Assembly: GCA_003605065.1 (NCBI GenBank)
Contig: QZJM01000068.1
Span: 1 to 34,915, forward strand
DNA from: Dethiobacter sp.
Lineage (GTDB): Bacteria; Bacillota; Dethiobacteria; DTU022; UBA8154
DNA: 34,915 nucleotides
Direction of reading: 5' to 3'
How positions within the stretch are numbered: position 1 is the stretch's first letter; each line of letters begins with the position of its first letter. A program made the translations under genes and the position numbers. Below are positions 12,677-26,627 of this stretch, in pieces. The notes beneath the pieces were generated by a model, which searched no databases, was not told the DNA's origin, and was given only the letters and a program-made list of their open reading frames with translations.

Positions 12677-12884
12677 TAAGATAAATTCCCACCTTTAATC
12701 CGTCTGGATATTATTTTATCATATTATTTTTAGTACCGCTAAAAAAATGTTTTATTCCCCAATTATTTTGCTTTATGATATAATCGTACTGGCTGGTCAA
12801 CAAAAATTTGACAAAGCCCTTTATTTTCAGAACAATTTTAAATATAATGGTTTTGCAGAAGAAAAATTTAGCGTGAGGAAAAAT

Positions 12885-13721
12885 ATGAAAAAAATGGATC
12901 TTGAAGAAAGAGAAGGAAAATATGTTCAATCGGTGGAAAGGGTTCTCAATATTGTGGAAGTTATGGCCCAGGAAGGTACGCCTGTTACTGTAACAGACCT
13001 TGCGGAAAAGGTCGGACTGAAAATTAGTACCGTGCACCGGCTGCTGTCCACCCTGACTCATCGGGGATATGTGGAGCAGGACCCTGATGACAACAAATAC
13101 AGGCTGGGCTTAAAATTGCTGGAAGTGGGAAATGCCGCCCTGTATTCCTCTGACATAAGAAGCGTAGCCAGACCCTACCTGGAGGAACTGGTGGAAAGAT
13201 GCAATGAAACCGCTAACCTGGCCATATTGGATAAAACTGATGTCGTTTATATTGATCAGGTTGAATCCAAAAATTTCATTATCGTGAAGATGTTTGCACA
13301 GGTGGGTAATCGTGGTCCGGTACACTGTACTGCTTCGGGAAAAGCGCTGCTGGCTTTTCTTCCCGACGAAAAACTGGAGGAAATATTGAACCAGACTCAA
13401 CTGACAAGGTTTACCAATGAAACCATTACAGATGCGCAGCACTTGAAAAAAGAACTAAAAAGAATCAGGGAAGAAGGGTATGCCCTGGACTGGGGCGAAA
13501 GGGAAGAACATGTCCGCTGCATTGCCGCCCCCGTATTTAATCATGAAGGCAGGGTGGCTGCCAGTATTAGTGTTTCCGGGCCGAGCACCCGTATAACTAC
13601 CTATTATATGAAAAACGAGCTGGTGGATATCATCAAAGATATTGCCGCTAAAATCTCTCATAGAATGGGCTATAATGCCAATGGTAAAAATGGTAATGGT
13701 GCTGACCGCCCTGTGGAGTAG
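12885..13721 (+). CDS. IclR-family regulator 1
   Basis: A 278-residue IclR regulator. The N-terminal winged HTH (about 12-70) contains VTVTDLAEKVGLKISTVHRLLSTL. The C-terminal effector domain (about 85-260) includes the conserved NLAILDKTDVVYIDQVES and HCTASGKALLAFLP blocks. A short NGKNGNG tail follows. The ORF track starts at 12747, but the first 46 residues are AT-rich and unlike IclR proteins; GAGGAA at 12875-12880 fits ATG 12885. Effectors in the family are usually small organic acids or aromatics. It is followed by a terminator and then the FMN glutamate-synthase-like gene, and it is clearly paralogous to regulator 2, so both probably control the redox locus. Confidence 0.93.
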   Translation: MKKMDLEEREGKYVQSVERVLNIVEVMAQEGTPVTVTDLAEKVGLKISTVHRLLSTLTHRGYVEQDPDDNKYRLGLKLLEVGNAALYSSDIRSVARPYLEELVERCNETANLAILDKTDVVYIDQVESKNFIIVKMFAQVGNRGPVHCTASGKALLAFLPDEKLEEILNQTQLTRFTNETITDAQHLKKELKRIREEGYALDWGEREEHVRCIAAPVFNHEGRVAASISVSGPSTRITTYYMKNELVDIIKDIAAKISHRMGYNANGKNGNGADRPVE

Positions 13722-13766
13722 TGTCATGATCTGCAGGTAAAACAGTTATTAAATAAATTCTTTTTC

Positions 13767-13791
13767 AGCCGGTTTAAGAACCGGCTTTTTG
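13767..13791 (+). terminator. Intrinsic terminator after iclR1
   Basis: AGCCGGTT TAAG AACCGGCT followed by TTTTTG: an 8-bp perfect stem with a 4-base loop. Confidence 0.85.
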
Positions 13792-13835
13792 TTATGGGCA
13801 AAAAAGGGGGCTTTGGCAGCAAAAATATAAATAGT

Positions 13836-13852
13836 TTTCCACGATACGGAAT
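13836..13852 (+). promoter_or_regulatory. Candidate IclR operator O1
   Basis: TTTCCACGATACGGAAT is an imperfect palindrome with TTCC..GGAA arms, ending 8 bases before the -35 box. It shares its first ten bases, TTTCCACGAT, with the site downstream of the nuoE promoter. IclR-type operators are often TGGAAA/TTTCCA palindromes. Binding is inferred. A position just upstream of -35 would suit activation or repression. Confidence 0.5.
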
Positions 13853-13860
13853 ATTATTTC

Positions 13861-13889
13861 TTGACAGTTAGCAGGGGGGATATTATAAT
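13861..13889 (+). promoter_or_regulatory. Consensus sigma-A promoter of the gltS-like 1 operon
   Basis: TTGACA (13861-13866), a 17-base spacer and TATAAT (13884-13889): a perfect consensus about 72 bases before the start codon. Confidence 0.88.
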
Positions 13890-13961
13890 CAAAAAAAGCC
13901 TATTTAAATTAGAATATATTTTCATAATACGGAAACTTCTCAACGGGGAGGAGAGAGAGGG

Positions 13962-15566
13962 ATGAGTTTCAGCAAAGGTTTAAACGCTTCCAGCAGTACT
14001 TTAACTAAAAACCGCACTCCTGGCAGTGTGTCTCCTTTCAGCGGGCTGTGCAGCACCTGTATAGAGGGCTGCATGGGACTCTGCGAGGTAGGCAGGTCTG
14101 CATTCCGGGGAAGGGAGGTTATTTACCCGCAGCCGTTCGGTACAACTACATTTGCATCGGAAAAAAATTACCCGGTAGATTTTTCTCATTTTAACATCAT
14201 GGGCAGTGCCGTTGGCGCCCGGGGAATTGAGGCCGACAGCAATAAAGCTGTTTTTCATGCTGTAGATACCGGGGTATCCCTGGGAGAGAAAGAAAAGATC
14301 AAGCTTAAACTTCCGGTGGTCATAGCTGCCATGGGTTCAACCAAGGTGGCGGCCGATAACTGGGAGGGCTTGGCAGCAGGAGCGGCCCTATCCGGGGTTG
14401 CCATTGTTGTTGGGGAAAACGTATGCGGCATGGATATGGGGGCAGAGTTTAAGGACGGCAGGGTGGTAAACTCTCCGCAGCTTAGGAAAAGAGTGGAAAG
14501 CTTCTGGCGCTGGTATGACGGCTACGGCGTTATTGCTGTCCAGGCCAACGTGGAGGACAGCGGGTTTGGCGTTTACGAATATGCTATAAAAGAGTTGGGA
14601 GTCCAGGCGGTTGAGCTGAAATGGGGGCAGGGTGCCAAATCAATAGGCGGGGAAGTAAAAATAACCGAACTTGAGAAAGCTGTGGAGCTTGCCAAACGCG
14701 GCTACCTGGTTTATCCCGATCCCATGGATCCCACCGTCCAGGAACTTTTTAAAAAAGGAAGCATCAAAGAATTTGAGCGTCATTCGCGTATCGGTATGTT
14801 GGAAGAACAAACTTTTCTGCAAAGAGTGAAAGAACTGCGAGAGATGGGGGCCAAGTATGTTTTCCTAAAAACGGGGGCTTACAGGCCTTCCGATCTGGCT
14901 CGTGCCGTAAAACTGGCTTCGGAAGCCAGAATAGATCTTCTTACTATTGATGGTGCCGGCGGGGGAACAGGTATGAGCCCGTGGAGAATGATGAACGAAT
15001 GGGGTATTCCCACTATTTACCTGGCAGGCTTATGCTATCAATATCTCCACGTTTTAAAGGAGGACGGCGCGTATATTCCTCCTGTAGCCCTGGCGGGCGG
15101 GGTTTCCCTTGAAGATCATGTTTTTAAGGCACTGGCCCTGGGAGCACCCTACTTTAAAATGGTAGGAATGTCACGGTCTCCGGTAACAGCGGTTTTAGTG
15201 GGCAATACCATTGGCAAGTTTATAAAAAATGGCAAGGTGCCCGCCAGTGTTTCGGAAAAATATGGTGCTTCTCTGGAGGATATTTTTGTTTCGGCTTATA
15301 AATTGAAAGAAAAACTGAACAGTGATTTTGACAATTTCCCGGCAGGGGGCCTCGGTCTTTATACTTATTTTGAAAGAATTACTACGGGCCTGCAACAGCT
15401 TATGTGCGGGGCCAGAAAATTTTCTCCGGAATATATTACCAGAGATGATATTGCTGCGCTTACGGAGGAAGCAGCCAGGGTTTCAGGCATAAAACATGTC
15501 CTGGATATGGACCTTGAGGAGTCAAAAGAAATTTTAAAGCGAAATTTCGCCTCCATACAGATATAA
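13962..15566 (+). CDS. FMN-binding glutamate-synthase-like protein 1
   Basis: A 534-residue protein matching the FMN/synthase barrel of glutamate synthase large subunit, without glutaminase or GXGXG domains. The FMN-barrel region (about 150-470) contains ELKWGQGAKSIGGEVK and IDGAGGGTGMSPWRMMNEWG. N-terminal cysteines 30, 33, 37 and 41 (C-x2-C-x3-C-x3-C) probably bind an Fe-S cluster. The canonical C-rich CPVGVAT loop of GltS is replaced by SPVTAVLVG, so it is not an ordinary glutamate synthase. The substrate is unknown. A consensus promoter precedes it, and no terminator separates it from iclR2 79 bp downstream. A close paralogue lies at 20234. Confidence 0.85.
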   Translation: MSFSKGLNASSSTLTKNRTPGSVSPFSGLCSTCIEGCMGLCEVGRSAFRGREVIYPQPFGTTTFASEKNYPVDFSHFNIMGSAVGARGIEADSNKAVFHAVDTGVSLGEKEKIKLKLPVVIAAMGSTKVAADNWEGLAAGAALSGVAIVVGENVCGMDMGAEFKDGRVVNSPQLRKRVESFWRWYDGYGVIAVQANVEDSGFGVYEYAIKELGVQAVELKWGQGAKSIGGEVKITELEKAVELAKRGYLVYPDPMDPTVQELFKKGSIKEFERHSRIGMLEEQTFLQRVKELREMGAKYVFLKTGAYRPSDLARAVKLASEARIDLLTIDGAGGGTGMSPWRMMNEWGIPTIYLAGLCYQYLHVLKEDGAYIPPVALAGGVSLEDHVFKALALGAPYFKMVGMSRSPVTAVLVGNTIGKFIKNGKVPASVSEKYGASLEDIFVSAYKLKEKLNSDFDNFPAGGLGLYTYFERITTGLQQLMCGARKFSPEYITRDDIAALTEEAARVSGIKHVLDMDLEESKEILKRNFASIQI

Positions 15567-15645
15567 ATCAAGCTATTTTTGCCCTTAAGGTTGCCTTTTC
15601 TCCAGGAGCCGTAGCAGCTTGAGCTCATTAGAGGAGTGATTTGCC

Positions 15646-16437
15646 ATGGGGATGGTGAGCGGTCCTGTTAAGGAGAAATCGGTTCAATCTGTGGAGAGAA
15701 CACTGCGTATTCTTGAGCTTATGGCCGAAAAAGGAAATCCTATGGCTTTGAGTGATATCAGCAACCAGCTGGGCTTAAAAATCAGCACAACACACCGCCT
15801 GCTCAAAACGTTGATTATCAAGGGGTTTGCCGAGCAGGATCCCTATACTGGGAAATACCAGCTGGGGATTAAGACTTTCAGGATTGGTAACACAGCCCTG
15901 TATACGTTGGATATCCGCTCTGTGGCCAGGCCATATCTTAAGCACCTTATGGAAAAGTACAAAGAGACGGCAAACCTGGCTATTCTGGACCACGGTGATG
16001 TTGTGTATATCGATCAGGTCGAATCGGAAAAAATGGTGAAGATGATTGCCAGGCTTGGCAGCAGGGGGCCTTCTCATTCCAATGCTGTGGGGAAAGTTCT
16101 CCTGGCATATCTCAGCAGTTTGGAACTGGAGCGTTATTTAAAGAGTAAAAAACTGGAAAAGTATACTGCGCAGACAATTACTTCCCCGGAACTACTGAAA
16201 AAAGAACTGGAGAAGGTAAAAAGTCAGGGCTATGCCCTGGATCTTGAAGAGACTGAAGAGGGAATATGCTGCGTGGCCGCTCCTGTCTGGAACCACCTGG
16301 GAAAAGTAAATGCGGCTATCGGTATTTCCGGACCCAGTAACCGTATCAGCTTCAGCTATATAAAAAAAGAACTGGCGCAGGCTGTAAAGAATACGGCCGA
16401 AGAAGTATCTCTGAAGCTGGGGTATCAGGATATCTAG
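15646..16437 (+). CDS. IclR-family regulator 2
   Basis: A 263-residue IclR regulator. The HTH (about 30-60) contains LSDISNQLGLKISTTHRLLKTL, and the effector domain has NLAILDHGDVVYIDQVES and SNAVGKVLLAYLS. It is very similar to regulator 1 over its whole length, with shared stretches such as LDIRSVARPYL-type and YIDQVES, so the two arose by duplication. GAGGAGTG precedes ATG 15646 (ATG 15652 is also possible). It is probably co-transcribed with the FMN protein and ends at a strong terminator just before the nuoE promoter. Autoregulation through O1, and control of nuoEFG through O2, is the simplest model. Confidence 0.93.
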   Translation: MGMVSGPVKEKSVQSVERTLRILELMAEKGNPMALSDISNQLGLKISTTHRLLKTLIIKGFAEQDPYTGKYQLGIKTFRIGNTALYTLDIRSVARPYLKHLMEKYKETANLAILDHGDVVYIDQVESEKMVKMIARLGSRGPSHSNAVGKVLLAYLSSLELERYLKSKKLEKYTAQTITSPELLKKELEKVKSQGYALDLEETEEGICCVAAPVWNHLGKVNAAIGISGPSNRISFSYIKKELAQAVKNTAEEVSLKLGYQDI

Positions 16438-16730: not shown

Positions 16731-17267
16731 ATGGAAGAGAGGACAAAAACAGACCTAGAAAACCTTAAAAAACAAAATGGCAGTTCTGTTGTTTCATTAC
16801 TGCAGGAAGTCCAGGAAAAGTACAACTATCTCCCCGAGGAATTATTGAGGGAGATAGCCAAAGAAAGAAACATCCCCCTTATGGACATTTACAGTGTGGC
16901 GACTTTCTATAAAGCATTCAGCCTGTCCCCCAAGGGCAAGCACAAGGTTGTAACCTGTTCCGGCACTGCCTGTCATGTCCGGGGAAGTGAAAAGGTAACC
17001 AGGGAAATTTCCCGTACACTGGGTATAGAGTCGGGTCATACCACTGAGGACGGACTGTATTCCCTGGAAAACGTCAGCTGTCTGGGTGCCTGTGCTCTGG
17101 CTCCGCTTGTTGTTATCGACGGGGAGTATCACGGCAGCATGACATCTGCTAAAATCCTGGAGATTTTGAACGGGCATACAGCAGGAAAAAAAGAAAATGG
17201 GTGTTGCTGTCATGATCAAGGGAAAAAGGAAAATGACTGCCGCCAGGTCAGTTTGCCAAGGGCGTAA
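16731..17267 (+). CDS. nuoE: NuoE/HydC-like [2Fe-2S] thioredoxin-fold subunit
   Basis: A 178-residue subunit of an NADH-oxidising module (NuoE of complex I, HydC of bifurcating hydrogenases, StnC of Sporomusa-type transhydrogenase). The helical N-terminus (about 15-60) has the typical YNYLPEELLREIAKERNIP. The [2Fe-2S] ligands are Cys76 and Cys81 (CSGTAC) with Cys117 and Cys121 (CLGAC). An unusual tail after residue 150 has GCCCHDQ and a further Cys170, which normal NuoE lacks and which may bind metal. AAAGGGGTG precedes the ATG. It is first of the nuoEFG-like set (after the candidate small ORF), with its own promoter and operator. Confidence 0.92.
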   Translation: MEERTKTDLENLKKQNGSSVVSLLQEVQEKYNYLPEELLREIAKERNIPLMDIYSVATFYKAFSLSPKGKHKVVTCSGTACHVRGSEKVTREISRTLGIESGHTTEDGLYSLENVSCLGACALAPLVVIDGEYHGSMTSAKILEILNGHTAGKKENGCCCHDQGKKENDCRQVSLPRA

Positions 17268-17349: not shown

Positions 17350-19215
17350 ATGAACGTTTTACATAGCAGGTTAAAAACAACTCAAGATTTGGAAAAGCTT
17401 CGGGAACAGCTGAGAAAAAACAGGGAAGAAAAAAGCACTTACCTGGCAGTCTGTGGTGATACAGGCTGTGCTGTCTGGGGCTCAAAAACGGTCAAAAACT
17501 TTTCTCAGGAATGCCTGGAAAAAAAGGGGCTTGCCGGTACAATTGGCCTGAAATTTACAGGCTGCCTGGGTCTCTGCGAAAGCGGTCCCGTTGTCATTGT
17601 CTTTCCCCAGGAAATATTTTATCAAAAAGTCCAGGAGGACGACGTAGAAGAGATTATTGAAAAAACAGTTTTAAAAGGTGAAGTTATCGAACGCCTGCTA
17701 TACAATGATCCTGTAACCGGCGAAAAGTATATTTATGCCCGGGATATACCTTTTTATAAAAAACAGCAGAGGACACTCCTTGCCAGCAACTGGAAAAATG
17801 ATCCTACCAGCATTGAGGACTACCTGGCTCTGGACGGGTATGAAGCATTTGAGCAGGCTTTAACGAAGATGACACCGCGGGAAATTATTGCCGAAGTAAA
17901 AAACTCCCTGCTCAGGGGGCGCGGCGGGGCCGGTTTTCCCACCGGTGCCAAGTGGGAAGAATGTTATGAAGTCCATGCTGACCAAAAATATATTATTTGT
18001 AATGCCGATGAAGGTGATCCGGGAGCTTTTATGGATAGAAGCTTGTTGGAAGGAAACCCCCATTCCGTCCTGGAAGGGCTGATCATCGGCGGTTATGCTA
18101 TTGGTGCCCGGGAGGGGATCGTCTATATCAGAGCTGAATACCCTACGGCGGTGGCTAAGGTACGCCTGGCCATTGCCCAGGCGGAAGAACTGGGGCTTTT
18201 AGGGGAAAACATTCTGGGCTCCGGTTTTAATTTTAAGGTATCTGTGAGTATCGGGGCGGGTGCCTTTGTCTGTGGGGAAACATCGGCCCTGGTCGCTTCT
18301 GTGGAGGGACGCGTCGGCGAGCCCCGTCAAAAGCCTCCCCATCTTGCGGAGCGGGGCTATCTTAACAAGCCCACGGTAATTAATAATGTGGAGTCCCTGG
18401 CCAATATACCGTACATTATCCGTCATGGGGCTGTCAGCTACTGCCTTACCGGCACAGAAAAATCTAAGGGGACGAAGATTTTTTCCCTGGTAGGGAAGGT
18501 CCTCAATACCGGGCTGGTGGAGGTTCCCCTGGGCATGACTTTAAGGGAGATCATTTTTGAGATCGGCGGCGGTATCAAGAACGGGAAACAATTTAAAGCA
18601 GTGCAAACGGGAGGCCCTTCCGGCGGCTGCCTGCCTGCTTCACTGCTGGACAGCCCCACTGATTTTGAAGAGCTTAGTGCAGCCGGTTCTATGATGGGTT
18701 CCGGCGGTATGATTGTCATGGACGAGGAGACCTGCATGGTAGATATCGCCCGCTATTTTCTGCGTTTTCTGGAAGATGAATCCTGCGGCCGCTGTTTTTC
18801 CTGCCGGGAAGGCATCAGCAGGATGCTGGAAATGGTGGAGGATATCACCAGGGGGGAAAGTTCGCCCGGGCAGCTGGATCTTCTCAGGGAACTGGCCCAT
18901 GTCGTGAAGGATTCTTCCCTGTGCGGCCTGGGCCAAACGGCAGCCAATCCCGTCCTGGCCACCATACGTTATTTTGAAGATGAATACCTGGCCCATATCC
19001 TGGAAAAAAGATGCCCGGCCGGAGTGTGCCGGGAGCTGATTCAATTCAGTATTAATGAAGAACTCTGCCAGGGTTGCGGCCTCTGCCTGAAAAAATGTCC
19101 GGGCGAGGCCATCCGGGGGGAAAAGAAACAGCCCCACGCCATCCTGGGGGATAAATGCACCAAATGCGGTATTTGCCTGGAGACGTGCAAATACAATGCC
19201 GTGCTAAAAAGTTAA
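17350..19215 (+). CDS. nuoF: NuoF/HydB-like NADH-binding flavoprotein
   Basis: A 621-residue FMN subunit, the NADH site of the module. Domains in order: a thioredoxin-like [2Fe-2S] domain (Cys35, 40, 72, 76), then the NADH/FMN domain (about 175-400). That domain carries the glycine-rich RGRGGAGFPTGAKWEE and the NADEGDPGAFMDR block. An SLBB domain follows, then the N3-type [4Fe-4S] site CGRCFSCREG with Cys near SSLCGLG. Two C-terminal ferredoxin clusters (CQGCGLCLKKCP, CTKCGICLETCK) complete it. This layout is that of HydB/HndC-type subunits, longer than complex I NuoF. GGAAGGAG precedes ATG 17350. No hydrogenase, formate dehydrogenase or membrane subunit accompanies it. Confidence 0.95.
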   Translation: MNVLHSRLKTTQDLEKLREQLRKNREEKSTYLAVCGDTGCAVWGSKTVKNFSQECLEKKGLAGTIGLKFTGCLGLCESGPVVIVFPQEIFYQKVQEDDVEEIIEKTVLKGEVIERLLYNDPVTGEKYIYARDIPFYKKQQRTLLASNWKNDPTSIEDYLALDGYEAFEQALTKMTPREIIAEVKNSLLRGRGGAGFPTGAKWEECYEVHADQKYIICNADEGDPGAFMDRSLLEGNPHSVLEGLIIGGYAIGAREGIVYIRAEYPTAVAKVRLAIAQAEELGLLGENILGSGFNFKVSVSIGAGAFVCGETSALVASVEGRVGEPRQKPPHLAERGYLNKPTVINNVESLANIPYIIRHGAVSYCLTGTEKSKGTKIFSLVGKVLNTGLVEVPLGMTLREIIFEIGGGIKNGKQFKAVQTGGPSGGCLPASLLDSPTDFEELSAAGSMMGSGGMIVMDEETCMVDIARYFLRFLEDESCGRCFSCREGISRMLEMVEDITRGESSPGQLDLLRELAHVVKDSSLCGLGQTAANPVLATIRYFEDEYLAHILEKRCPAGVCRELIQFSINEELCQGCGLCLKKCPGEAIRGEKKQPHAILGDKCTKCGICLETCKYNAVLKS

Positions 19216-19228
19216 GGGGGTGGTGTCA

Positions 19229-19921
19229 ATGCTAAATTTAACCCTGAACGGCCTGGAGATTTCCGTGGAGAAGGGGACGACTCTGCTGGAAGCGGCCAAA
19301 TTTTATGGTATGGAAATCCCCACGCTCTGCAGCGATGAAGCTTTAAGCCCTTACGGGGCCTGCAGGCTCTGTCTGGTGGAAATCGGTACGGGTAACCATT
19401 CCAGGCTGGTTTCCTCCTGTACTTATCCTGCCAGGGAGGGTTTAACTGTAAGGACGCACACGGAAAGGGTCGTACAAGCCAGAAAACTTCTCCTCGAGCT
19501 GTACCTGGCCACCTGTCCTTCTTCGAAAACCATCCAGGATATGGCCTCCAAATTAGGTGTGACAAAGGTTCGTTTTAAACAAAAACATGAGGAGTGTATC
19601 CTCTGCGGCCTTTGCGTCAGGATGTGCGCTGAGCAGATGCAGGGCAAAGCCATCGGTTTTGTAAAAAGGGGCATAAAACGCCGTATTACCGCTCCCTTTG
19701 CTAAAAAATCGGAGGATTGCCGCCTCTGCGGAGGCTGTATGTATATCTGTCCTGCCTGCCAGGCCAGGTGCCAGGGGCCGCAGGAAAAAAGCCCCATTTG
19801 CAACGCTTGTTTGAACCTTTCTGCTCCCTGCCTTGATTATTTTGAAGAAGCCATGTGCTACATGGACCCCTGTGTGGCCTGTGAACTGGGCACGGGAAGG
19901 AAAGCAAAAGCACAAAGTTAA
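19229..19921 (+). CDS. Stand-alone NuoG-N-like iron-sulfur protein
   Basis: A 230-residue protein equal to the Fe-S N-terminus of NuoG, HydA or FdhA, without a catalytic domain. The [2Fe-2S] ferredoxin ligands are Cys34, 45, 48 and 64. The normal His-Cys [4Fe-4S] site is absent: only Cys96 (LATCPSSKT) remains. Two [4Fe-4S] sites follow at Cys123-133 (CILCGLCVRMC) and Cys164-174 (CRLCGGCMYICP). A C-terminal tail adds Cys177, 181, 191, 194, 201, 210, 215 and 218. It probably wires NuoF to a separate partner. The track start GTG 19220 overlaps the AAGGGGG RBS; ATG 19229 is better. It is 13 bp after nuoF. Confidence 0.88.
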   Translation: MLNLTLNGLEISVEKGTTLLEAAKFYGMEIPTLCSDEALSPYGACRLCLVEIGTGNHSRLVSSCTYPAREGLTVRTHTERVVQARKLLLELYLATCPSSKTIQDMASKLGVTKVRFKQKHEECILCGLCVRMCAEQMQGKAIGFVKRGIKRRITAPFAKKSEDCRLCGGCMYICPACQARCQGPQEKSPICNACLNLSAPCLDYFEEAMCYMDPCVACELGTGRKAKAQS

Positions 19922-19974
19922 CAACACCGGCGTTATAATGAAAATGACCGAACTTGAGCTGGTACGCTTACCTT

Positions 19975-20217
19975 GGGCGGAAATGTTGCCGTTGTTTTAA
20001 ATCAGCAAGTTCGGAATTAAAAGCGCGAGGAGCTTAAGGTCAAGGCGAGCAACTGTCTCCCGCGCAGCGAGTTGTTGGGAGCCTCCTGAGCTATGAGCGC
20101 CACCTTAATGTGAGTTGAACTTGCCTAAAACAACGGCAACTTTCCGCCCATCGTGGAACTTGGCTCCAGTTGAACCAGAACTGCGCCACCAGCAAAACGC
20201 TGCGCTATTTTCATACT
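19975..20217 (+). repeat. MITE-like palindromic repeat, copy A
   Basis: The core 19975-20149 has terminal inverted repeats GGGCGGAAATGTTGCCGTTG and (from the right) GGGCGGAAAGTTGCCGTTG, with further internal pairing such as CTCCC/GGGAG. A 68-bp arm (20150-20217) follows. The reverse complement matches 24021-24256 closely. It fills the spacer between the NuoG-like gene and gltS-like 2 and ends at that gene's RBS. No ORF of its own; non-autonomous element or structured RNA. Confidence 0.75.
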
Positions 20218-20233
20218 AGAGAGGAGAATGATC

Positions 20234-21817
20234 ATGACTCTTTCCAGGTTGAATGCCTCTGCCGCTACTCTAACGAAAAACCGCACCGAAGGTTCGATCA
20301 GCCCTTTTAGCGGTATGTGCGTGACATGTGTGGACGGATGTGTAGGCATGTGTGAAATAGGAAAATCAGCTTACCGGGGACATGAAACTATTTATCCCCA
20401 GCCTTTTGGCATTATAACTACCGCTTCGGAGAAAAAATACCCCCTGGATTATTCGCATTTTTCCATCATGGGTACCGCCGTAGGGGCTGTAGGGATAGAA
20501 GCCGACAGCGACAAGGCTATTTTTCCGGCAGTAAATTTACAGACGAGGGTAGGCCGGGGGGAGGGTATCAAGGTAAAACTGCCCTTTGTTATTCCCGGTA
20601 TCGGCTCTACCGATGTGGCCAGGAATAACTGGGAAGGGCTGGCCATAGGTTCCGCCCTGGCGGGAACCATTTTGACTATCGGTGAAAATGTCTGCGGTAT
20701 GGACGAACAGTCCGTCATTAAGGACGGCCGGGTTGTAAGCACAGTTGACCTGGACAGGAGGGTTAAGCTTTTTAAAGATTGGCAGAGAGACGGGTACGGT
20801 GCCATCGTCGTCCAGGCCAATGTGGAAGATACCAGGCTCGGTATTCAGGAGTATGTTATCAGCCAGCTTGGCGTGGAAGTGGTGGAGCTTAAATGGGGTC
20901 AGGGGGCCAAGGACATCGGCGGGGAAGTTAAAATTAAAAGCCTGGAGAAAGCCCAGATGCTGCAAAAAAGAGGATATGTGGTTCTCCCCGATCCGGAAAA
21001 CCCTGCTGTGATCAACGCTTTTCACAAAGGGGCCTTCAAGGAATTCGAACGGCATTCGCGTATCGGCATGGTAGAGCTGGAATCATTCCTGCAGAGGGTT
21101 GAGGAACTGAGAAAAGCAGGTGCCAGGTACGTATTTCTGAAGACAGGGGCGTACCGGCCGGCGGATCTGGCTCGTGCCGTAAAATTTGCCTCCCTTGGCA
21201 AAATCGACATGCTCACCGTAGACGGAGCCGGGGGCGGCACCGGAATGAGCCCCTGGAGAATGATGAACGAGTGGGGTATTCCTTCGGTGGAGCTGCATTC
21301 TCTCCTCTACCAGTACTGCCGGAAGCTGGCCCTTAAAGGGGAGTATGTGCCCGATATAGCCCTGGCCGGCGGTTTTACCCTTGAAGACCAGGTATTTAAA
21401 GGGCTGGCCCTGGGGGCTCCTTACGTTAAACTTATCGGTATGGCCCGGGCCCCCATCGCTGCTGCTATGGTGGGTAAGACCATCGGCAGGCGCATCCACG
21501 AGAACAAGCTGCCTGTTTATGTGGAACGCTTCGGGCAGAACGTGGAAGAAATCTTTGTCACGGCTTCGGCTCTTAAGGAAGAATTGGGGGAGGAAACTTT
21601 TAATAAAATACCCCCCGGGGCCCTGGGCCTCTATACCTACTACGAGCGTCTGGCCCAGGGGTTAAAGCAGCTTATGTGCGGGAGCCGCAAATTCGATCTC
21701 CAGTACATTTCCCGGGATGATATCGGGGCGTTAACCAGGGAAGCGGCCGAGGTAAGCGGGATCACTTATATTATGGACCTGGACAGGGAAGAGGTAGACA
21801 AAATCCTGGAGATGTAA
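20234..21817 (+). CDS. FMN-binding glutamate-synthase-like protein 2
   Basis: A 527-residue paralogue of the protein at 13962, collinear over its whole length. It has the same N-terminal four-cysteine motif (Cys29, 32, 36, 40; CVTCVDGCVGMC), the barrel motifs KWGQGAKDIGGEVKIK and DGAGGGTGMSPWRM, and a late single cysteine (LMCGSRKF). The CPVGVAT cluster loop of true GltS is absent (ARAPIAAAMVGKTIG instead). The track starts at 20228; GAGGAG at 20221-20226 spaces better to ATG 20234, which also aligns with paralogue 1. As the last member of the nuoEFG-like unit it is the best candidate for the partner that takes or gives electrons. The reaction is unknown. Confidence 0.85.
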   Translation: MTLSRLNASAATLTKNRTEGSISPFSGMCVTCVDGCVGMCEIGKSAYRGHETIYPQPFGIITTASEKKYPLDYSHFSIMGTAVGAVGIEADSDKAIFPAVNLQTRVGRGEGIKVKLPFVIPGIGSTDVARNNWEGLAIGSALAGTILTIGENVCGMDEQSVIKDGRVVSTVDLDRRVKLFKDWQRDGYGAIVVQANVEDTRLGIQEYVISQLGVEVVELKWGQGAKDIGGEVKIKSLEKAQMLQKRGYVVLPDPENPAVINAFHKGAFKEFERHSRIGMVELESFLQRVEELRKAGARYVFLKTGAYRPADLARAVKFASLGKIDMLTVDGAGGGTGMSPWRMMNEWGIPSVELHSLLYQYCRKLALKGEYVPDIALAGGFTLEDQVFKGLALGAPYVKLIGMARAPIAAAMVGKTIGRRIHENKLPVYVERFGQNVEEIFVTASALKEELGEETFNKIPPGALGLYTYYERLAQGLKQLMCGSRKFDLQYISRDDIGALTREAAEVSGITYIMDLDREEVDKILEM

Positions 21818-23964: not shown

Positions 23965-24020
23965 TCTCCTTTCAGGTGAATGGCCTAACCTCCCTTCAAA
24001 ATATGCCGGTTCTTTTTTTA

Positions 24021-24256
24021 TTATGAAAATGGCGCAGCGTTTGCTGGTGGTGGAGCTCCGGGTTCAACTGTAACAAGTTCTACGATGGCCGTAAAGTTGC
24101 CATTGCTTTAGGCAAGTTCAACTCACACTAAGGTGGCGCTCATAGCTCAAGGCTCCCAACAACTCGCTGCGCGGGAGACAGTTGCTCGCCTTAACCTTCG
24201 CTCCTCGCGCTTTTAATTCCGAACTTGCTGATTTAAATCAACGGCAACATTTCCGC
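24021..24256 (-). repeat. MITE-like palindromic repeat, copy B (inverted)
   Basis: Reverse-complement copy of 19975-20217: the arm TATGAAAATGGCGCAGCG starts at 24021 and the palindromic core ends CAACATTTCCGC at about 24256. Differences are scattered substitutions and small indels. It follows the 5' side of the gamma-CA gene. The two copies bound a roughly 4-kb segment in inverted orientation. Confidence 0.75.
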
Positions 24257-24539
24257 TCAAAGTGGGAAAAAGTATACCAGTTTAAAATTCTCAACCTTAG
24301 TATATTTCGCCTTGTAACCCCAAATTCCTTTTAGCAGCAAGTCTAAAAGATTTACTTCAGGCAAAAAGGAAAGAAGTTGCTGTGAAAAAAAGCTTATGCA
24401 CAGCAGGAAAAATTTTTCCGAAGAAGAATTAATATATTTAAAGAAAGAATCGGAGGTCAGGGTTATTTTTTGCATTTTTTTACCTTATAGCGAAAGCTCC
24501 AGGCGGGAAGCTTAAAGACTTTAAGAAGGAGTGAACAAG
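24257..24539. other. AT-rich spacer before the GltD-FlpD gene
   Basis: No supported gene. The minus ORF 24257-24475 has a biased, AT-driven composition and no convincing family. A 39-codon plus frame at 24396 (MHSRKNFSEEELIYLKKES) lacks a good RBS. It probably contains the promoter of the next gene, but I see no clear -35/-10 pair. Confidence 0.35.
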
Positions 24540-26627
24540 ATGGCAAACAGCAACGGTGCATTAAAAGAGGGTTCTCCCGGGATACCCCCCTGTCAGGCAG
24601 CCTGTCCTATTCATCAGGAGGTACGGGAATACTTGCGCTTGATCGCCATTGGGGACTTTAACCGTTCCTTAGAGGTTATTAAAAAGGCAAATCCCGTTTC
24701 CTCGGTATGCGGGACTATCTGTGCCCATCATTGTGAAGACGAATGCAGGCGCCAGAATGTGGACGAACCCGTTTCCATTCGGGGCTTAAAAAGAGCAGCG
24801 GTGGAATTCGGCCAGGCGGATTTTGCCGCCCCGGCAAATGTAGATGCCGGTAAAAAAGTAGCTATTATCGGTTCCGGGCCGGCGGGATTAATCGCCGCTT
24901 ATGACCTTGCTTTGCAGGGCTGCCCCGTAACTATTTTTGAACGGGAAAAATACCTCGGCGGTGCTCCGCGCAACTTTATTCCCCTCTACCGCCTCCCCGA
25001 TGAGACTGTTGAGCGGGATATTGATAATCTTAAAAAATTAGGCGTAGAGTTTAGAACTGGAGTAGAATTCGGCACGGATTTTGGGTTGGAAGAATTGAAG
25101 AAGGAAGGTTTTAAAGCTGTACTTATAGCGGTAGGCCTTACGGCAAGCCGTGGCCTGCCTATCCCCGGAGCTGATCACAAAGATGTCCTTTTGGCCCTGG
25201 AATTTTTAAAGGCGGCCAAGAGAGATAACTTCAGGCTGGACGGGCGCGAGGTTATCGTAATCGGCGGCGGTAACGTGGCCATGGATGTGGCCCGCTCGGC
25301 AGTACGCTGTGGCGCAGCCAGGGTAAGACTGGCCTGCCTGGAGTCCGAAAAGGAAATGCCGGCTTTTTCCTGGGAAATTGAAGAGGCCAAGGAAGAGGGC
25401 GTTGAATTCAACTGCTCCTGGGGGCCAAAAGCTATCAAGGTGGAAAACGGCGGGATTACGGGGCTGGAGCTCAAAGAATGTACCGCTGTTTTCGATGCGG
25501 AAAAAAGGTTCAACCCCAGCTATAATGAGGAAAATATCCTTGTAATCCCCGGAAATACCGTCATTTTTGCCATCGGCCAGGGCTCCGACCTGGAAGCGGT
25601 GAAAAAAGCCGGTGTTCCCATAGATGAAAGAGGCCGCCTGGTGTTCGACCCGGCAACCATGAAAACCCCTCTGGAGGGAGTCTTTGCCTGCGGGGAGATA
25701 GTAGCCGGCCCCAGCACGGCGGTTAAGGCCATGGCCAACGGCAGGGTGGCGGGCATGTCCATTTATAACTATCTTGCCGGAAAACCTTTTGTGGCCTCCA
25801 TGGTCGCGGAGGAGACACCACTCTCCGAGCTGGCCGCTGATGTTGCCGAAAACGTCAAGAAAATAGCGCGCCATGAAATTCCCATGTTAAACGCTGCAGA
25901 GCGCTCCAGCAACTTCCTGCCCGTAGAAAAGGGTTACACCATGGCTATGGCCGTATGGGAGAGCCGCCGCTGCCTGGGTTGTGCTGCCGGTGCCCAGCGG
26001 ATCGTGGAAAAATGTGCCGACTGCCTTACCTGCCTGCGTACGTGTCCCTATAACGTTCCGGTGGTCAGCGACCAGGGCGACTTAATGATCCGCGATCACC
26101 AGTGCCAGGCCTGCGGTCTTTGCCTTACTGTCTGCCCCAACCTGGCCATCGAGTTCAGGGCTCCTTATATCGCCGAGGCGGAGGAGCAGCTTGAGCCTGT
26201 AGTCAGTAAACTAATGGCTTCCCGAAACGGGTCGCCGGCAGTGTTGGTTTTATCCTGCGGCCTGGGCGCCTATGCTCTGCCAGGATTTAATGAAGGCTTC
26301 TTAAAGAACAAAGGCGGGAATGTGGATGTTGTCAAATTCCCCTGTATTTCCAAAATTGACACCACCCACATCCTTAAAGCTTTCCAGCTGGGGGCGGATG
26401 CAGTTATTGTCGCGGGCTGTGCGGAAGAAGACACAAATAACTGTCCTTTCCAAAAAACCATGTACTGGGCCGGCCAGCGTGTCAGCCGCGTTAAGTCTAT
26501 CCTGAAAGATGTGGGCATCGAGGAGGAACGCCTTGCCCTCTGCAGCTTTGCCCCGGAAGCAGTGGATAATTTCGGAGAAGCTGTCAGCGAAGTTCTAACT
26601 AAAATTAACGAACTTGGCAAGCGGTAG
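24540..26627 (+). CDS. GltD-like NAD(P)/FAD oxidoreductase fused to ferredoxin and FlpD domains
   Basis: A 695-residue cytoplasmic electron-transfer flavoprotein. Order: N-terminal Fe-S domain of glutamate synthase small subunit/NfnB type (Cys18, 22, 57, 61, 65, 69). Next, an FAD motif IIGSGPAGLIAAYDLA (about 109-124) and a NAD(P)H motif VIGGGNVAMDVARSAV (about 240). Then two [4Fe-4S] sites, CADCLTCLRTCP and CQACGLCLTVCP. Last comes an FlpD/MvhD-like domain (about 565-690) with FPCISKID, GADAVIVAGCAEEDTNNCPF. It therefore joins a NAD(P)H flavin site to the kind of wire HdrA uses. AAGGAG fits ATG 24540 better than GTG 24531. It is a possible partner of HdrA or of the NuoEF-like module (inference). 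Confidence 0.88.
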   Translation: MANSNGALKEGSPGIPPCQAACPIHQEVREYLRLIAIGDFNRSLEVIKKANPVSSVCGTICAHHCEDECRRQNVDEPVSIRGLKRAAVEFGQADFAAPANVDAGKKVAIIGSGPAGLIAAYDLALQGCPVTIFEREKYLGGAPRNFIPLYRLPDETVERDIDNLKKLGVEFRTGVEFGTDFGLEELKKEGFKAVLIAVGLTASRGLPIPGADHKDVLLALEFLKAAKRDNFRLDGREVIVIGGGNVAMDVARSAVRCGAARVRLACLESEKEMPAFSWEIEEAKEEGVEFNCSWGPKAIKVENGGITGLELKECTAVFDAEKRFNPSYNEENILVIPGNTVIFAIGQGSDLEAVKKAGVPIDERGRLVFDPATMKTPLEGVFACGEIVAGPSTAVKAMANGRVAGMSIYNYLAGKPFVASMVAEETPLSELAADVAENVKKIARHEIPMLNAAERSSNFLPVEKGYTMAMAVWESRRCLGCAAGAQRIVEKCADCLTCLRTCPYNVPVVSDQGDLMIRDHQCQACGLCLTVCPNLAIEFRAPYIAEAEEQLEPVVSKLMASRNGSPAVLVLSCGLGAYALPGFNEGFLKNKGGNVDVVKFPCISKIDTTHILKAFQLGADAVIVAGCAEEDTNNCPFQKTMYWAGQRVSRVKSILKDVGIEEERLALCSFAPEAVDNFGEAVSEVLTKINELGKR

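Follow-up and report, generated by a model that had tools for sequence, protein, structure and literature searches.

The window analyzed here is the whole stretch of 34,915 nucleotides of Dethiobacter sp. contig QZJM01000068.1. It contains a four-gene cassette, nuoE-nuoF-nuoG-gltS2, in which nuoG encodes a small subunit with a cysteine-rich tail, and a second gltS2-type gene lies upstream. The features discussed below are the following.

13962..15566, + strand: GltS1, a second GltS2-type protein, 63% identical to GltS2, upstream of nuoEFG and found only in some relatives.
16731..17267, + strand: nuoE, a BfuC-like subunit with [2Fe-2S] ligands C76, C81, C117, and C121 (PF01257, E=9.9e-48; PDB matches).
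17350..19215, + strand: nuoF, a BfuB-like subunit with the Bfu ligand set (Pfam, PDB match, ligand alignment).
19229..19921, + strand: nuoG, a BfuA-like subunit of 230 amino acids with [2Fe-2S] and two [4Fe-4S] motifs and an eight-cysteine tail (ORF, Pfam, PDB, alignments).
19328..19420, + strand: [2Fe-2S] ligand region of NuoG, C34, C45, C48, and C64 (Fer2_4, E=2.4e-16; invariant in 81 sequences).
19514..19516, + strand: C96 of NuoG, the sole remnant of the His-Cys (N5/A3) site (alanine in 25/81 homologues).
19595..19750, + strand: two [4Fe-4S] motifs of NuoG, C123-C133 and C164-C174 (Fer4_7; invariant).
19757..19882, + strand: eight-cysteine tail of NuoG, C177-C218 (CxxxC, CNAC, C201, C210, CVAC; conserved in alignments).
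20228..21817, + strand: gltS2, encoding an FMN TIM-barrel protein related to the FMN domain of glutamate synthase (PF01645, E=3.9e-15; AlphaFold2 model; fold matches).
20318..20353, + strand: N-terminal CxxCxxxCxxxC of GltS2 (C31, C34, C38, C42), a possible [4Fe-4S] site (invariant, 24/24 and 46/46).

Several other elements lie close by. Two IclR-family regulator genes flank GltS1 (window 12747-16437), and 24531-26627 encodes a GltD-like protein with a fused FlpD/MvhD domain, whose gene remains close to the cassette in the Dethiobacter group. An interspersed repeat of ~300 bp sits between nuoG and gltS2 in the window (19925-20222, 298 bp); a 90% copy is found on the other strand at 24019-24263, and the genome holds 35 full or partial matches.

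Pfam recognizes in NuoG the [2Fe-2S] domain and, weakly, the [4Fe-4S] pair (C123/126/129/133 and C164/167/170/174), and nothing else. The NCBIfam HydA, HoxU, and NuoG models score the protein far under their cut-offs, and TIGR01973 is under its own. The His-Cys N5 site and the long C-terminal region of complex I NuoG are both absent from this 230-residue protein. As the initial annotation had read it, the HxxxCxxC...C site is down to a single cysteine, C96. We considered this residue as a leftover ligand and rejected it; because alanine replaces it in 25 of 81 homologues, C96 is unlikely to bind a metal. The eight further cysteines claimed at 177-218 match the translation of the ORF exactly: C177, C181, C191, C194, C201, C210, C215, and C218, with CNAC at 191-194 and CVAC at 215-218.

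The annotation also expected a cofactor set different from those of HydA, NuoG, and FdhA. The set does differ, although the missing His-Cys site was already known from other A subunits, among them 9mqx_A. In particular, a Type 2 BfuA is defined by the absence of clusters A3 and A5 and by a separate third-substrate subunit (PMC9304861), and we infer from PMC8880783 that cluster A3 is the His-Cys cluster. Since Type 2 A subunits lack A3, the absence of the His-Cys site is to be expected here, and the tail is the addition. Loss of the His-Cys cluster is thus not new; the eight-cysteine tail is the new part.

The other two core subunits place the cassette among the Bfu enzymes. The best PDB matches of NuoE are bifurcating HydC chains, and it carries the four ligands of the BfuC [2Fe-2S] cluster. 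NuoF has the domains of a BfuB subunit, namely PF01512 (FMN/NADH 51K), PF10531 (SLBB), PF10589 (NADH_4Fe-4S), and a C-terminal Fer4 pair; it matches 7t2r_B over its full length (E=1.3e-231) and aligns to bifurcating-hydrogenase B subunits. Its ligands are C479/482/485/525 for B1, C462/T500/H549/C555/C560 for B2, C573-C613 for B3/B4, and C35/40/72/76 for B5. One or two B5 cysteines are missing in many NuoF homologues. The Bfu-specific B2 histidine is present in all 76 of them, and it is reported to be absent from non-bifurcating homologues (PMC9304861). Because NuoF and NuoE here retain the Bfu-specific B2 site and the ferredoxin arm, ferredoxin is likely to be a further electron partner, which is also its role in other Bfu enzymes. 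With a BfuA that has neither A3 nor A5, the cassette corresponds to Bfu Type 2, in which GltS2 would be the separate third-substrate subunit.

Whether homologues keep the tail had been set beforehand as one of the points on which it should stand or fall, and they do keep it. A search with the whole NuoG protein against 60 related genomes, which carries no bias toward the tail pattern, recovers a distinct group of full-length orthologues at 65-90% identity, and all eight tail cysteines are invariant in 20 of these orthologues. We also made a wider scan, with one genome per species, that yielded 80 loci. These come from genomes labeled Bacillota (Dethiobacter, Syntrophomonadaceae), Aminicenantes, Zixibacteria, Planctomycetes, Gemmatimonadota, KSB1, Elusimicrobia, Ignavibacteria, Coatesbacteria, and Syntrophaceae; most sequences in the analysis are metagenome assemblies. 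One seed pattern of the scan, [ML]DPC[VA]ACE, sits in the tail and biases the set to tail-bearing members, and the whole-protein search agrees with it on conservation. In this set, the seven positions in 177-210 and at 218 are cysteine in 80-81 of 81 sequences from many phyla. Position 215 is cysteine in 54/81; in the Aminicenantes group the second knuckle is displaced by a few residues (CGTC), with eight cysteines kept.

The conserved block ends abruptly, mean identity being 0.58 in the tail and 0.22 downstream of its last cysteine. At a cysteine content of 1-1.5%, at least eight cysteines would fall within 54 residues by chance with p ~1e-7 to 1e-6, and conservation is a stronger test than this count. 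The tail is sparse in the phylum but compact: a tail-only profile matches 3 of 399 genomes. In one genome, a second NuoG copy (L058) no longer has the tail's end; two further copies are interrupted, one by a stop (G052) and one by frameshifts (G009). Chance or an assembly artefact was rejected as the tail's origin, given the conserved cysteines in orthologues and the constant pairing with GltS2.

Sister BfuA proteins encoded beside a 2-oxoacid oxidoreductase (L061), CODH (L063), and a sulfite-reductase/sulfhydrogenase-like set (L060) do not carry the eight-cysteine tail. A different C-terminal pair, CxxC...CPxC, is seen in the paralogues at L061:6251-6988, L062:1902-2636, and L063:6146-6991, of which the first adjoins 2-oxoacid oxidoreductase genes and the last CODH genes. 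This difference suggests that BfuA tails may be partner-specific.

Both [4Fe-4S] and zinc are possible as the metal of the tail. Searches of Pfam and the PDB with the tail alone gave no real match, the hits to DDT, Zn_clus, and FwdG being insignificant, and an AlphaFold2 model of NuoG built with 20 orthologues (pLDDT 54) leaves the tail disordered at pLDDT ~25-40. The tail could be a structural zinc domain of the ribbon-like CxxC...CxxC kind that docks GltS2, which would then be fed directly by the distal [4Fe-4S] cluster of NuoG. Its two CxxC knuckles stand ~24 residues apart, as in a ribbon, their spacing is flexible in Aminicenantes, and the paralogues beside 2-oxoacid oxidoreductase and CODH genes end in a pair of their own. 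However, eight cysteines with a CxxxC right after the [4Fe-4S] motif fit one or two more clusters at least equally, and zinc-ribbon families gave zero significant matches in the tail-only Pfam search. We consider a zinc tail realistic, at odds distinctly below even.

The best explanation of the tail is its partner gene, gltS2. In all 80 loci, as far as the DNA reaches, gltS2 is the next conserved gene 3' of nuoG, and every intact tail-bearing nuoG gene lies directly upstream of it. Among the 60 related genomes, the 22 with the tail protein all carry GltS2 as well (22/22), and the 38 without it hold one divergent full-length GltS2-like protein and two fragments. In one genome (G045), the divergent gene has 5-oxoprolinase on one side and 2-oxoacid:ferredoxin oxidoreductase genes on the other; at L154:8003-9556, a divergent GltS2-like gene with no tail-bearing NuoG belongs to a 5-oxoprolinase/2-oxoacid oxidoreductase cluster. 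Adjacency by itself is no proof of a complex, and in the window the 298-bp repeat separates the two genes, so that GltS2 might be an unrelated neighbour and NuoEFG a free-standing enzyme with another partner. Such an arrangement is highly improbable, as the pairing occurs in 80/80 loci, spans many phyla, and survives exchange of NuoF.

GltS2 has 529 residues in the window and 525-530 across loci, and its relatives share 70-86% identity with it across phyla. It scores 56.4 bits against PF01645 (cut-off 20.4), with part of the profile covered, and retains the GltS motifs KxxQGAK and DGxxGGTGxSP. The GltS [3Fe-4S] motif, C-x5-C-x4-C after the FMN barrel, is absent; the aligned GltS2 region, IGMARAPIAAAMVG, has zero cysteines. 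Pfam finds no glutaminase (GATase) domain in GltS2, and the GATase gene of this genome is located with the C63 synthase on another contig. A PDB profile search returned only designed TIM barrels with weak E-values, and no PDB chain was matched by sequence. The AlphaFold2 model (pLDDT 84, pTM 0.88) resembles FMN-dependent TIM barrels, for example glycolate and lactate oxidase; the first 50 fold matches include no GltS chain. The model confirms the predicted FMN-barrel fold, and the substrate is not thereby fixed.

The cassette is retained while all other neighbours change. In fact, the complete single-contig genome G361 has only nuoE-nuoF-nuoG-gltS2-gltS2' in common with the window. A 132-residue cysteine-rich protein with no Pfam match is encoded upstream of nuoE in about five loci (L118:4397-4792). 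The core itself also varies: 28 of 76 NuoF ORFs exceed 950 residues, and in these the ferredoxin-like B3/B4 end is swapped for a GltD unit (Fer4_20 plus an NAD(P)/FAD domain), the B2 His/Cys site being retained (L085:4868-8005, L095, L102, L103, L135, and others). GltD is the electron-input subunit of glutamate synthase. In a BfuB tree, the cassette NuoFs are not one group; those of L071, L073, L082, and G361 fall with a CODH paralogue (100/99), and those of L085, L095, and L143 with the A. mobile NiFe enzyme (100/99). The tail-bearing NuoGs do form one group, in a quick tree with long paralogue branches. With NuoF split across the tree and the tail-bearing NuoGs together, the core appears to have been exchanged while the NuoG-GltS2 pair stayed constant, and the simplest reading of the sequences is that tail-bearing NuoG and GltS2 are a fixed pair that used several Bfu cores.

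The gene neighbourhoods point to nitrogen and glutamate. NtrC-type regulators are found at 21 loci, and 8 loci from several phyla have glutamate dehydrogenase adjacent to the cassette or close by; glutamine synthetase occurs at 8 loci, all in the Aminicenantes group, and this one-lineage link and the IclR regulators of the window say little. Glutamate supply in the window genome does not require GltS2, as a glutamate dehydrogenase and a canonical-type glutamate synthase, split into subunits that include glutaminase and GXGXG ones, are also encoded there; we rejected GltS2 as the sole glutamate source. Nor is glutamate synthesis established for a protein with neither the GltS [3Fe-4S] motif nor a glutaminase domain. 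The most likely couple would be 2-oxoglutarate/glutamate with free ammonia.

GltS2 might instead be mainly catabolic, or act on an amino or hydroxy/oxo acid other than glutamate, a substantial possibility that falls somewhat short of even odds. The canonical-type synthase elsewhere in the genome, the divergent GltS2 within a 5-oxoproline degradation cluster, the lactate and glycolate oxidases among the fold matches, and the IclR regulators, often catabolic, that flank the window copy all speak for it. However, in several phyla the cassette has NtrC-type regulators and glutamate dehydrogenase as neighbours, which favours glutamate or ammonium.

Taken together, we read these observations, with a probability of roughly 0.6, as an NAD(H):GltS2 oxidoreductase of the Bfu type that works on an amino/oxo-acid couple. 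We envisage a soluble complex of four subunits, NuoE (BfuC), NuoF (BfuB), NuoG with its tail (BfuA), and GltS2. Hydride would be exchanged with NAD(H) at the NuoF FMN, and NuoF would exchange electrons with the three NuoG clusters, one [2Fe-2S] and two [4Fe-4S]. The tail, directly after the distal [4Fe-4S] cluster (the A4 position), would dock GltS2 and probably holds one or two extra metal sites, linking to the four-cysteine site and FMN of GltS2. At that FMN, the amino/oxo-acid couple would be reduced or oxidised.

At standard potentials, NADH lies at about -320 mV, 2-oxoglutarate/glutamate at about -120 mV, and ferredoxin at -400 to -500 mV, so NADH-driven glutamate formation leaves room for ferredoxin reduction by bifurcation. 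The same potentials make electron flow from NADH to 2-oxoglutarate/glutamate downhill without ferredoxin, and the fused NuoF-GltD forms have no ferredoxin arm; the complex could accordingly be a plain NADH-dependent GltS2 reductase without ferredoxin coupling. This simpler enzyme is credible, if rather doubtful, since window-type NuoF has both B3/B4 and the B2 histidine, which non-bifurcating homologues lack (PMC9304861). Within the four-subunit oxidoreductase that we prefer, a more specific proposal is a bifurcating ammonia-dependent glutamate synthase/dehydrogenase, in which the Bfu core would couple NADH-2-oxoglutarate/glutamate to ferredoxin via the eight-cysteine metal domain, with NADP(H) replacing ferredoxin in the NuoF-GltD fused forms. 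We consider this unlikely. If true, energy conservation in many uncultured anaerobes would be tied to the assimilation of nitrogen or the oxidation of amino acids, and the metal domain would be a previously unknown one.

A four-protein enzyme joining a bifurcation-type NADH module to a glutamate-synthase-like FMN enzyme is apparently undescribed; we found no description of a GltS-Bfu or NuoF-GltD enzyme in the open-licence literature. Bfu enzymes share an NADH/ferredoxin core and vary chiefly in the parts joined to it, and many Bfu clades have no assigned partner in the published survey (PMC9304861). The cassette adds an unlisted partner, the GltS-like FMN enzyme, and a distinct connector, the eight-cysteine tail, which appears to mark that partner. 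It also offers a natural case in which a GltD domain replaces the ferredoxin arm, and it makes the coupling of amino-acid/oxo-acid redox chemistry to ferredoxin testable in anaerobes of many phyla.

Comparison with known systems shows which parts are shared. Type 2 Bfu (HydABC-like) enzymes such as Wor-Bfu and Bam-Bfu (PMC9304861) have the same BfuB/BfuC core, for which the window copy has the B1-B5 and C1 ligands, the same A subunit plan of [2Fe-2S] and two [4Fe-4S] clusters without A3 His-Cys or A5, and an extra catalytic subunit encoded next door. Unlike these, the window BfuA bears the eight-cysteine tail, the partner is GltS-like and FMN-dependent and does not appear in the list of third-substrate modules in PMC9304861, and some cassette members have GltD replacing the B3/B4 ferredoxin arm. 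The closest solved A subunit, 9mqx_A (E=1.5e-38), likewise has no His-Cys site, and 9mqx chains B (NuoF-like) and C (NuoE-like) match too; the alignment to 9mqx_A ends near residue 196, with no counterpart of the complete cysteine tail seen.

NADPH-dependent glutamate synthase (GltB/GltD) shares its FMN-domain motifs (PF01645) with GltS2, and about a third of loci have a GltD domain fused to NuoF. Unlike GltB, GltS2 has no glutaminase, central, or GXGXG domain and no [3Fe-4S] motif, and it has the N-terminal CxxCxxxCxxxC instead; a Bfu core stands in place of, or is joined with, GltD. One survey (PMC10327494) reports from Dehalobacteriia a NuoEFG-like cluster that has no assignment and may or may not have a connection with the cassette. 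Finally, Stn, the Sporomusa-type Nfn (PMC7483475), likewise combines a NuoE/NuoF core with NuoG-like and GltD-like modules. In Stn, GltD is joined to the NuoG-like subunit, whereas in the cassette GltD, where fused, replaces the end of NuoF, and the cassette adds the GltS-like FMN enzyme.
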